Of a stretch of DNA of 33,192 nt, positions 9,706 through 32,709 are shown in pieces. The translations under genes and the position numbers were made by a program. The stretch lies in the NCBI GenBank assembly GCA_020724885.1, contig DYGD01000008.1, positions 1 to 33,192 on the forward strand, written 5' to 3'. Each line of letters starts with the position of its first letter. Within the stretch, counting starts at the first letter, position 1. The DNA comes from Candidatus Paceibacter sp. Its GTDB lineage: Bacteria > Patescibacteriota > Minisyncoccia > Phycocordibacterales > BOKC01. Under the pieces are notes generated by a model. It did no database searches and had not been told where the DNA came from. It was given only the letters and a program-made list of their open reading frames with translations.

Positions 9706-9749
9706 AGAAGATACGTTTCAATGTACTAGTACATTGAAACGTATCTTCT
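9706..9749. repeat. 44-base perfect palindrome at the 3' end of the TrpR-like gene
   Basis: The sequence is perfectly self-complementary about the centre CTAG at 9726-9729. The inner 28 bases (half-site CGTTTCAATGTACT) are identical to those of the second palindrome at 10298-10345, while the outer arms differ (AGAAGATA here). It provides the last seven codons and the TAG stop of the minus-strand regulator gene. It could be an operator (its GTACTAGTAC centre resembles trp-operator CTAG half-sites), a hairpin, or a small palindromic mobile element. Confidence 0.9.
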
Positions 9750-10244
9750 AGACGGAGTGCGTCGAACCGCTTGTTTTATAAGTCGTGGATCTTTCAGTTC
9801 TTGTCGCGCCCTTATCTCATCAAGAATGTGCGAAAAAAGAAAAGCCAAAGGGTAACGTTGCTTGGTTCTTTCCCATTCACTTTTTTGTAGTTTGGTTATT
9901 TTTTTCTGTTTTTGAATTATCTTTTTTCTTTGTTCCAAAAGCCGCTCAATCACAATTTTATAACCATTTCTATCTTCCTGATTTAATTTCTTTGAGACCG
10001 AGGTAATAGTGGCTCGTCCGGCGCCCGTATAACCTTGAATCTCCTCGGTAGTAAAACCAGCCCAAAGTAAGGCAGCAATTTCCACTCTTCTCATAAACAT
10101 AGTAATTTCATCCGGATTTAAAAGATCGCGGAAAAAAGCTCTGACTTCATCTCGGGACTTGAGAGAAAAGATAATATCATAAAACTCTCCGATAAGTTGT
10201 ATCCGTTGGGGTTTGGGAAGTTTATTAAGAGAAAACCTAACCAT
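9726..10244 (-). CDS. TrpR/YerC-like DNA-binding regulator
   Basis: The 172-residue protein has a TrpR-superfamily core. FFRDLLNPDEITMFMRRVEIAALLWAGF (37-64) leads into a helix-turn-helix, TTEEIQGYTGAGRATITSVSKKL (65-87). YerC-type proteins stop near 100 residues. Here there is a basic coiled-coil segment (about 95-130, IQKQKKITKLQK) and a tail of roughly 40 residues. The final residues RRYVSMY are encoded by a palindrome that also supplies the stop. A palindrome with the same core lies 54 bases upstream of the start, where an operator would be expected, so autoregulation is plausible. No tryptophan genes are in view, so the ligand and targets are unknown. Confidence 0.8.
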   Translation of the reverse strand: MVRFSLNKLPKPQRIQLIGEFYDIIFSLKSRDEVRAFFRDLLNPDEITMFMRRVEIAALLWAGFTTEEIQGYTGAGRATITSVSKKLNQEDRNGYKIVIERLLEQRKKIIQKQKKITKLQKSEWERTKQRYPLAFLFSHILDEIRARQELKDPRLIKQAVRRTPSRRYVSMY

Positions 10245-10297
10245 AAAATTTTTATTATTAACTTAATAATCCACCTTTACGCTCTTATTCTAACAAG

Positions 10298-10345
10298 AAC
10301 AACCCTCCGTTTCAATGTACTAGTACATTGAAACGGAGGGTTGTT
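10298..10345. repeat. 48-base perfect palindrome upstream of the TrpR-like gene
   Basis: Perfect dyad about CTAG (10320-10323). The inner 28 bases are identical to the 9706-9749 palindrome, then different arms (AACAACCCTC) pair perfectly. It lies between the divergent TrpR-like and FBPase genes, 54 bases from each start. The position suits an operator for both promoters or, as RNA, a very stable hairpin. Confidence 0.9.
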
Positions 10346-10398: not shown

Positions 10399-11379
10399 AT
10401 GGATCGTAATTTAGCTTTAGAATTTGTTCGGGTCACCGAGGCGGCGGCGATTGCCGCCGCCCGCTGGATTGGCAGGGGAGAAAAGAAAAAAGCTGACGGG
10501 GTGGCGGTTGATGAGATGCGCGACAGATTTAATCAGATTGATTTTGCTGGGCGCATCGTCATCGGCGAAGGACGAAAAGACGAAGCGCCGGAGCTTTACG
10601 TTGGAGAAAGAGTGGGCAGGGGAAGGGGGCCGATGATGGATATTGCCGTTGATCCTCTAGAATGCACCGCTAGTGTGGCTTTCGGCCGACAAAACGCAAT
10701 GTCGGTTATTTGCTCCGGACCCAAAGGCGTGCTACTTTCCGCACCCGACACTTATATGGAGAAAATTTCCGCCGGACCGAAAGCGGCAAAAGTGATTCAC
10801 CTAGACGCCTCGGTTAAAACAAATATAGAAAAAGTTGCCAAAGCGCTCGGCAAGAAAAAAGGAGAGATCATTGTTGCAGTTTTGGATAAGCCCAGACACG
10901 AAGAAATTATCAAAAATATAAGAGAGGTCGGCGCAAGAATAAAGCTTTTCAGCGACGGCGATATATCAGCCGCTATTGCCACTTGTCTTCCAGGGTCGGG
11001 GATTGACTTACTTGTCGGCACCGGAGGCAGCGCTGAGGCGGTGCTCTCAGCGCCGGCGGTAAAAGCCCTCGGCGGAGAAATTTACTGCCGCTTTGCTCCA
11101 CCAGATGAAAAACATCGGCAGCTTGTAAAAAAAGCTAATTTAAACACCAGAAAGGTATATTCAGCAAACGACTTGGCAAAAGGCAAAACCTTAACATTCA
11201 CCGCAACCGGCGTCATTGACGGCCCGCTTCTGAAAGGCGTTCGATTTCTGGGCAATAAAATAATCACCCACTCAATCGTCATCCGCGGAGAGTCGGGAAC
11301 GATAAGGTATATAGAAACACATCACCACCTTAGTAATAAAGGTAGCGGTTGCCCACTATATTATCATATGATAATATAG
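10399..11379 (+). CDS. glpX: fructose-1,6-bisphosphatase class II (GlpX)
   Basis: Hydrolyses fructose-1,6-bisphosphate to fructose-6-phosphate (gluconeogenesis), metal-dependent, cytosolic. The 326-residue length is near normal. Metal and substrate residues match E. coli GlpX numbering: D33, E57 (GEGRKDEAP), D85 and T90 (DPLECT), and E212 (GTGGSAEAV). Oddly, the near-invariant Gly of DPxEGT is Cys89. The last residues (LYYHMII) and the TAG stop are encoded by a perfect palindrome at 11355-11380, so the original C-terminus was probably replaced. Class I aldolase is encoded 0.8 kb downstream, and together they cover fructose-bisphosphate interconversion. Confidence 0.93.
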   Translation: MDRNLALEFVRVTEAAAIAAARWIGRGEKKKADGVAVDEMRDRFNQIDFAGRIVIGEGRKDEAPELYVGERVGRGRGPMMDIAVDPLECTASVAFGRQNAMSVICSGPKGVLLSAPDTYMEKISAGPKAAKVIHLDASVKTNIEKVAKALGKKKGEIIVAVLDKPRHEEIIKNIREVGARIKLFSDGDISAAIATCLPGSGIDLLVGTGGSAEAVLSAPAVKALGGEIYCRFAPPDEKHRQLVKKANLNTRKVYSANDLAKGKTLTFTATGVIDGPLLKGVRFLGNKIITHSIVIRGESGTIRYIETHHHLSNKGSGCPLYYHMII

Positions 11380-11380
11380 T
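11355..11380. repeat. 26-base perfect palindrome at the glpX 3' end
   Basis: ACTATATTATCAT followed immediately by its exact complement, with no loop. It contains the glpX stop codon and ends 39 bases before the antitoxin start. Its AT-rich dyad and position suit an operator for the ribbon-helix-helix antitoxin, but it could also be another palindromic insertion. Confidence 0.85.
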
Positions 11381-21431: not shown

Positions 21432-21487
21432 CACCCAGCACCACTTTTTGCCCTCGGGCAAAAAGTGGTGCTGGGTGTTTTCTTTTT
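21432..21487 (+). terminator. strong rho-independent terminator
   Basis: A perfect 21-base stem (21432-21452 with 21457-21477) with a four-base loop, followed by TTTTCTTTTT. It separates the DHODH-like transcript from tRNA-Ala. Confidence 0.9.
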
Positions 21488-22457: not shown

Positions 22458-22482
22458 CACCAACAAGGAATCAGGCAACCCG

Positions 22483-22532
22483 AACCACCATCCGATTTGC
22501 CAAAGGCAAATCGGATGGTGGTTCTTTTCTTT
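22483..22532 (+). terminator. strong terminator after the OPRTase-like gene
   Basis: A 19-base perfect stem (22483-22501 with 22505-22523), AAA loop, then CTTTTCTTT. It ends just before the convergent antiporter gene. Confidence 0.9.
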
Positions 22533-31135: not shown

Positions 31136-31178
31136 GTGTCAGATGTGTTAGATAGGCACCATCTAACACATCTGACAC
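31136..31178. repeat. inverted repeat 1 after ychF
   Basis: An 18-base perfect stem (31136-31153 with 31161-31178) around AGGCACC. No T-run follows. It may act as a bidirectional hairpin between convergent genes. Confidence 0.75.
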
Positions 31179-31295: not shown

Positions 31296-31343
31296 AGCAT
31301 TTTCTACAAAATCTGACGGCCGTCAGATTTTGTAAAAAATGCT
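31296..31343. repeat. long near-perfect palindrome after ychF
   Basis: A 30-base perfect palindrome (31305-31334, centre GACGGCCGTC) extends with one mismatch to 48 bases (outer arms AGCATTTT/AAAATGCT). It lies 32 bases from the stop of the convergent gene. It recalls the paired palindromes near 10 kb in form but has a different core. Confidence 0.8.
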
Positions 31344-31757: not shown

Positions 31758-32687
31758 ATGAAAACTTCACCAAAAGATTTTTTTCTTCATCTGGCTGTTA
31801 TCGCTTCACTCTATACAATAGCCGTCAGTTTTATAAATCTGGCCTGGCGGATTATTGACTATGTTTTTCCCTCCGGAAATTTTTACGGATATTATGAACG
31901 AACACTCTCCGCGCCGGTTGCTACTTTAATTGTTGTTTTTCCAATTTTCATAATTCTATACTGGCTTTTAAATCGGGAATATCAAAAAATACCGGAAAAA
32001 AGAAATCTTTGGATTAGAAAGTGGCTTGTTTATATCACCTTATTTCTCTCCGGCATCGTAATAGTGGTTGACTTGATCGTTGTGTTAATTTCTTTTCTCG
32101 GCGGAGAACTTTTGACCGTCGGCTTTGTCCTAAAAGCTCTTGCGGTATTTATCGTCGCTCTGGCAATTTTTGGCTATTACATCGTTGACTTGCGCGGACA
32201 AACGACTTCTAAAATAAATAAAATTTCCGCTTGGGCTTCCGGTCTTATAATTCTTATTCTGATTATTTCCGGATTTTCAATTTTAGGTTCACCCCGCACC
32301 CAACGTCTATTGCGGATTGACGAACAAAAGATTGGAGATTTGCAGAATATCCAGTGGCAAGTGGTTAATTTCTGGCAAAATAAAGGGGAAGTGCCAAAAA
32401 CTCTTGCCGATTTATCCGACCCGATTTCCGGTTTTATTGCGCCTCGCGACCCACAGAGCGGGGAAGCGTATGGATATCGTGTTTTAAGCGCGCCTTTAAC
32501 TTTTGAACTTTGCGCTAATTTTAATTTGGAGAGCCGCCCCGTATATCGGGGGACTGCGTCCCCCGATATACGGGGCTTTGACCTCCCCAAACCTATCACT
32601 CCGCAGGACTCCTGGAACCATCCAGCCGGCAACCATTGCTTTGAAAGAACCATAGACCCGGAGCTCTACCCCCACACCAAAAGATAA
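31758..32687 (+). CDS. DUF5671-like membrane protein with pilin-like tail
   Basis: A 309-residue protein with five membrane helices (about 8-30, 52-71, 88-113, 119-143, 156-176) resembling the DUF5671 family common in CPR bacteria. A soluble C-terminal part follows (180-309). RIDEQKIGDLQNIQWQVVNF...VPKTLADL...PRDPQSGEAYGYRV recalls pseudopilin-like domains. A perfect hairpin lies in frame at 32538-32578 (residues about 261-274, RPVYRGTASPDIRG), probably an insertion. A second hairpin at 32667-32709 holds the stop codon. Function unknown. Confidence 0.75.
   Translation: MKTSPKDFFLHLAVIASLYTIAVSFINLAWRIIDYVFPSGNFYGYYERTLSAPVATLIVVFPIFIILYWLLNREYQKIPEKRNLWIRKWLVYITLFLSGIVIVVDLIVVLISFLGGELLTVGFVLKALAVFIVALAIFGYYIVDLRGQTTSKINKISAWASGLIILILIISGFSILGSPRTQRLLRIDEQKIGDLQNIQWQVVNFWQNKGEVPKTLADLSDPISGFIAPRDPQSGEAYGYRVLSAPLTFELCANFNLESRPVYRGTASPDIRGFDLPKPITPQDSWNHPAGNHCFERTIDPELYPHTKR
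32538..32578. repeat. in-frame hairpin inside the DUF5671-like gene
   Basis: An 18-base perfect stem (32538-32555 with 32561-32578) around CTGCG, within an intact reading frame. The arms begin GCCCCGTATATCGG. It looks like a palindromic repeat element tolerated in a coding region. Confidence 0.85.
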
Positions 32688-32709
32688 ATCATCTTTTGGT
32701 GTGGGGGTA
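32667..32709 (+). terminator. hairpin at the DUF5671-like gene end
   Basis: A 19-base perfect stem (32667-32685 with 32691-32709) around AAATC, containing the TAA stop at the start of the loop. No T-run follows, so it may stabilise the mRNA end rather than be a classical terminator. Confidence 0.6.

Follow-up and report, generated by a model that had tools for sequence, protein, structure and literature searches.

The segment 9706–10345 of a 33,192-nucleotide stretch of Candidatus Paceibacter sp. DNA (the window; contig DYGD01000008.1) is probably a REP/RAYT-like self-bracketed mobile cassette, in which a TrpR-fold, end-binding protein is encoded between two palindromes that it would recognise. 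The family to which it belongs features palindrome pairs around the gene, specificity of these pairs for a long form of the protein, co-variation of protein and palindrome, presence and absence of the unit at comparable sites, homology that ends near the palindromes, and dispersed solo copies of the palindrome.

The gene is enclosed by a downstream palindrome of 44 bp at 9706–9749 (22-bp arms, zero loop) and an upstream palindrome of 48 bp at 10298–10345 (24-bp arms, zero loop), the latter 54 bp before the start codon; both are perfect. They share an identical 28-bp core, CGTTTCAATGTACTAGTACATTGAAACG, at 9714–9741 and 10308–10335, and the outer arms of 8 and 10 bp, respectively, differ in sequence yet pair perfectly—lengths, core, and arms being exactly as the original prediction had described them. 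Between the two copies of this element (L001), six double changes keep the pairing intact, and five do so in L004. Ranked by arm length, both palindromes are in the top three of the window's perfect hairpins. Folded alone as RNA, each reaches −27 to −37 kcal/mol (z of approximately −8 to −10), and none of 200 shuffles folds as well; the contribution of chance to their origin is negligible. In the 591,661-base genome, GTACTAGTAC occurs in no third place beyond the two bracket palindromes, and the 28-mer core, with up to three mismatches allowed, is likewise confined to these two places. A target-site duplication produced by insertion into a palindromic target was ruled out because the arms pair inside each copy and not across the element. 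Other long perfect hairpins with 18–22-bp arms and short loops lie at 21432–21477, 22482–22524, 31136–31178, 32536–32576, and 32667–32709 of the window; of these, 32536–32576 is located inside the coding frame 31758–32687, and 32667–32709 overlaps the end of the same frame. In addition, a zero-loop perfect 26-bp palindrome, ACTATATTATCATATGATAATATAGT, at 11355–11380 overlaps the end of glpX and provides its last codons and stop.

The bracketed gene (9726–10244, minus strand) encodes a long-form TrpR-like protein of 172 aa, which consists of a TrpR domain at residues 20–102 and a basic C-terminal extension of approximately 70 aa. Its stop codon, TAG, falls within the central CTAG of the downstream palindrome, and the upstream palindrome sits between the divergent starts of the gene (10244, minus) and of glpX (10399, plus); the predicted supply of the stop codon by one palindrome and the placement of the other in the region shared with glpX are thereby borne out. 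The second neighbour of the cassette is tRNA-Pro. The protein matches the TrpR family PF01371 (E 2.9e-15), and the solved TrpR-like structures 3frw, 3g1c, and 3kor can be tied to it. The TrpR fold proposed earlier therefore holds at the level of the family, but the protein is nearer to YerC/YecD (TIGR02531, 53.8 bits, above cut-off) than to true TrpR (TIGR01321, 22.7 bits, below its cut-off of 67.25). No nuclease or recombinase signature is recognisable in the 172 residues, Transposase_17 is not matched, and a catalytic strand-transfer domain was found by none of Pfam, NCBIfam, PHROGs, or PADLOC. The protein carries a single histidine and hence no HUH motif. Across a diverse TrpR-like set only E46 and R53 are invariant, with no conserved catalytic set. 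Searches of PADLOC and PHROGs gave no match at all, and tRNA was the sole match in Rfam.

The core was originally read as the operator of this regulator. In favour of this, it tracks the protein across the phylum, and the window core TGTACTAGTACA agrees with the TrpR motif TGTAcTnGTnnACnAgTACA published in PMC9413887 in its outer half-sites, the inner eight bases being missing. The half-sites abut directly, and the geometry differs from the 20-bp operator of TrpR. A promoter-like site of the gene, TTGAAA-17-TAGAAT at 10287–10315 on the minus strand, is weak, being no commoner than in shuffles; its −35 hexamer falls within the upstream palindrome.

Relatives of the protein are scattered. A class-wide search yielded homologues in 59 of 285 genomes; the one further genome of the same genus has none, and the closest homologue (60%) resides in another family of the class. 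TrpR-like genes, short forms counted, are present in 148 of 379 sampled Patescibacteria genomes at up to eight per genome; the genomes are mostly metagenome-assembled, and all comparisons span species or genera. A scan of a contig collection with the window protein alone gave no match, whereas a sub-alignment of relatives did; viral contigs held no relatives, and the plasmid collection gave ordinary YerC-like matches only. With the long form defined as 115 aa or more and one score applied to all, 73 of 105 long-form genes are bracketed by two palindromes that have a core in common. The same score detects a pair in 2 of 293 control genes from stretches of six related genomes, one of these two being a member of a second protein family with the same architecture (PaaX_M/Cas2-like, see below). 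Among shorter TrpR-like hits, 3 of 29 are bracketed, and those three are early-ending frames or 103–105 aa in length; the typical YerC form of about 104 aa has no bracketing pair. On the question of whether the core always accompanies the gene, most long forms do carry a core, but in a modified sense: the shared core at the pair centres varies between loci, each gene lineage having its own, and 32 of the 105 lack a pair detectable at the threshold used. The cores are in direct orientation in 67 of the 73 pairs, symmetric cores being scored as direct. A reading as terminal inverted repeats was set aside because most asymmetric cores are direct.

Palindrome and protein change together. Over 72 elements, core similarity rises from 0.44 at less than 20% protein identity to 0.76 at more than 60%, and the divergences of core and protein are correlated (Mantel r 0.30, reached in 0 of 2000 permutations). 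At one syntenic site, L041 versus L051, the protein and both cores are altered together. One genome, G388, holds five bracketed copies with five different cores, and the core ACATTCATACAGTCGTGTATGAATGT spans three families, in which it goes with related proteins in four genomes. Many cores contain ATACT or GTACT and its complement. Over all pairs, 49 double changes face 40 one-sided breaks, a count that is biased because the arm ends were set by pairing; therefore, weight is placed on single clear cases such as L001. Taken at the sequence level, these comparisons support an assignment of the core to the long-form TrpR-like protein.

The unit is also variable in its location. The sister genome keeps ORF119, tRNA-Pro, glpX, and fba in order, without cassette or core. 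At the corresponding site upstream of glpX, this sister genome (L003) has CCCGTTAGTAGT / ACTACTAACGGG as an inverted repeat, and the tRNA-Pro 3′ end (TTCCGGGCAGCCCGAA) is present there a second time. In the Candidatus Doudnabacteria order, cassettes sit within operons and share their reading direction, the occupied junctions varying between genomes. Junction c10|c9 carries a cassette in G388, G558, and G579 and a 2-bp gap in G456; junction c9|c8 carries one in G456 and G488 and a 4-bp overlap (−4 bp) in G388 and G579; and junction c52|c38 carries one with an in-frame stop in G488 and a 4-bp overlap in G456. More occupied junctions are found in the Doudnabacteria genomes NC1088, 43_13b, and NC1297. 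One core-type lineage sits at c10|c9 in G579 but at c9|c8 in G488, NC1088, and G456 (with a diverged core in G456)—an apparent shift by one gene, as judged by core type. Within G264, L016 and L040 are 76% identical from just beyond one palindrome to just beyond the other, with unrelated flanks, and in L124, L132, and L106 homology is likewise confined to the element, ending near the palindromes. Empty sites, the adjacent-junction shift, and near-clean ends, as expected of a transposable element, are thus found at genus-to-family distance and not between strains. Identical recent copies at two sites were not found, L016/L040 being the clearest within-genome pair, and some copies are vertically inherited (L007/L008 and L067/L068). 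Both neighbours run in the same direction for 54 of the 69 cassettes in which both are known, the window copy being an exception; as 69% of the other genes in the Doudnabacteria stretches do so too, the directional bias is modest.

Solo palindromes occur as well. A palindrome of the ACATTC type is dispersed away from the gene in G456 and G565; palindrome copies occupy 8 places in G456, 8 in G565, and 3 in G587, the G565 count including L168, a duplicated contig end that is not taken as a solo copy. The search of the genome for further copies thus had a divided outcome: the window's genome, like G388, holds the two bracket copies only, whereas in G456 and G565 the palindrome is dispersed. Since most other lineages also show bracket copies alone in the stretches examined, proliferation is the exception. 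Some solo copies directly follow a stop codon, some provide a stop themselves, and others are in frame within coding sequence (L164, L170, and L171). An empty-site comparison at ddl for one solo palindrome was dropped, as the homologues are not orthologues. In G456, two solo palindromes of two lineages stand abreast where G388 and G558 have cassettes. In G558 (L156, 12781–13921), three identical palindromes form the array [pal]TrpR[pal]SET[pal] with a SET-domain gene as the second insert, as if the cassette had acquired cargo. A different arrangement is seen in G565 (L169, 1201–3225), where the same 26-bp palindrome precedes each of three tandem paralogous lipoprotein-like genes.

A mobile cassette of this kind could operate as follows. 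The TrpR-like protein would bind each end palindrome as a dimer, so that the ends co-vary with the protein. Stem pairing beyond the core would be retained because at some stage the ends would function as hairpins or cruciforms. Movement would be driven either by the protein or by a host nuclease acting on the hairpin, one conceivable route being the cutting of hairpins or cruciforms by host nucleases; the chance that the TrpR-like protein itself is needed for movement is put slightly below even. The unit would travel between genomes and operon junctions and may leave or generate solo palindromes. At the upstream copy, the protein may repress its own promoter; mobility and autoregulation are compatible.

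One alternative is a resident autoregulator, which represses its own gene, and perhaps glpX too, through the upstream palindrome, while the downstream copy serves as a looping aid, roadblock, or terminator, the dispersed copies form a regulon, and gain and loss reflect horizontal transfer and deletion of the ordinary kind. The TrpR and HisR relatives are indeed operator-binding repressors with 20-bp palindromic motifs (PMC9413887), the −35 box overlaps the upstream palindrome, weak as this promoter-like site is, and most sampled genomes hold two bracket copies only. For the window copy alone, an autoregulator with two operators is possible, but the family-wide evidence weakens it: the pair accompanies the gene into unrelated operons with the downstream copy kept too, solo copies lie behind stops or in coding sequence and not mainly at promoters, and within a given operon the occupied junction varies from genome to genome. 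The sister glpX does without the unit. An ordinary regulator with a glpX operator, as first supposed, does not suffice as the whole story, and we regard the resident autoregulator as quite unlikely.

Alternatively, the directly repeated palindromes could be substrates of a host recombinase or of RecA/hairpin-nuclease repair, in the manner of integron cassettes or pdif modules, with the TrpR-like protein merely silencing a passive cassette. The predominance of direct core pairs (symmetric ones scored as direct), a protein free of catalytic motifs, and the cargo array of L156 all speak for such passengers; the cores of G388, however, differ and track the protein lineage, a pattern that is not required by a single host recombinase, and this explanation appears unlikely. 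Plain intrinsic terminators or processing hairpins that flank the gene by chance would fit the further long perfect hairpins at gene ends in the window and the terminator-like score of the upstream hairpin on the minus strand. Yet a core common to both gene ends is found in only 2 of 293 control genes, the units reside within operons, where termination would harm, and the upstream hairpin precedes the gene, which renders this explanation very improbable. The REP/RAYT-like mobile cassette accounts best for the family as a whole.

Several known systems resemble the cassette in part. Rickettsia palindromic elements and other small mobile palindromes insert as solo copies after stops or in frame, as in L164, L170, and L171; unlike the TrpR-like cassettes, they are not known to enclose a cognate gene between two of their own copies. 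Integron gene cassettes and pdif modules place genes between palindromic sites, comparable to the cargo array of L156, but here the palindrome is private to each TrpR-like lineage and flanks its own gene on both sides. An integrase or a dif-like site was not seen among the immediate neighbours of the cassettes. The closest parallel is REP/RAYT (PMC2817692): a small gene lies between two matched palindromes, protein and palindrome co-evolve with complementary changes that keep palindromicity, solo palindromes occur elsewhere, and the unit is present or absent. In contrast to that system, in which RAYT is a Y1 HUH transposase and REPs are mostly GTAG-tagged, inverted, and usually present in dozens to hundreds of copies, the cassette features a TrpR-fold protein without HUH motif, untagged and mostly direct or symmetric palindromes, and few or no solo copies. 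With the TrpR and HisR/YerC repressors (PF01371, TIGR02531; HisR in PMC9413887) it shares the DNA-binding domain and TGTACT/AGTACA half-sites in the core. Those known forms measure approximately 100 aa, to which the TrpR-like long form adds an extension of 40–80 aa; their operators lie upstream of regulated trp/his genes and bracketing is not described for them, whereas the window half-sites abut and the neighbours are not trp/his genes.

The same architecture is found around an unrelated protein. PaaX_M/Cas2-like genes (PF20803) are bracketed by matched palindromes in 16 of 30 loci of the Doudnabacteria order (L197–L226); the window's genome has three copies, every one of them bracketed (L230, L231, and L232 on contigs C8, C7, and C2). 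These brackets feature compensated spacers between conserved blocks, for example in L217, L222, and L224. At 31305–31334 of the window itself, a perfect palindrome, TACAAAATCTGACGGCCGTCAGATTTTGTA, stands alone; its core, TGACGGCCGTCA, is that of the PaaX_M-type brackets. Similar palindromes occur at two other places in the same genome, C4:12192 and C16:7153, the former adjoining two further CGATCG-centred palindromes (L228).

It can tentatively be proposed that these units form a new kind of mobile element: a DNA-binding protein with a repressor fold, and no classical transposase, would mobilise the gene encoding it through cognate end palindromes. On this reading, the architecture would also have arisen with at least one unrelated protein (PaaX_M/Cas2-like), and the class would be general and overlooked in Patescibacteria. 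Searches of the open-access literature outside bioRxiv gave no description of TrpR-like self-bracketed units, and within this scope the novelty is provisional. If mobile, the units would be a repressor-fold counterpart of REP/RAYT in the tiny, streamlined genomes of Patescibacteria and would show a route from DNA-binding regulator to selfish element. They would also offer a large natural set of proteins matched to their palindromes, from which the specificity of the TrpR fold could be decoded. Patescibacteria genes labelled ‘TrpR’ or ‘PaaX’ should be annotated as metabolic regulators with caution.
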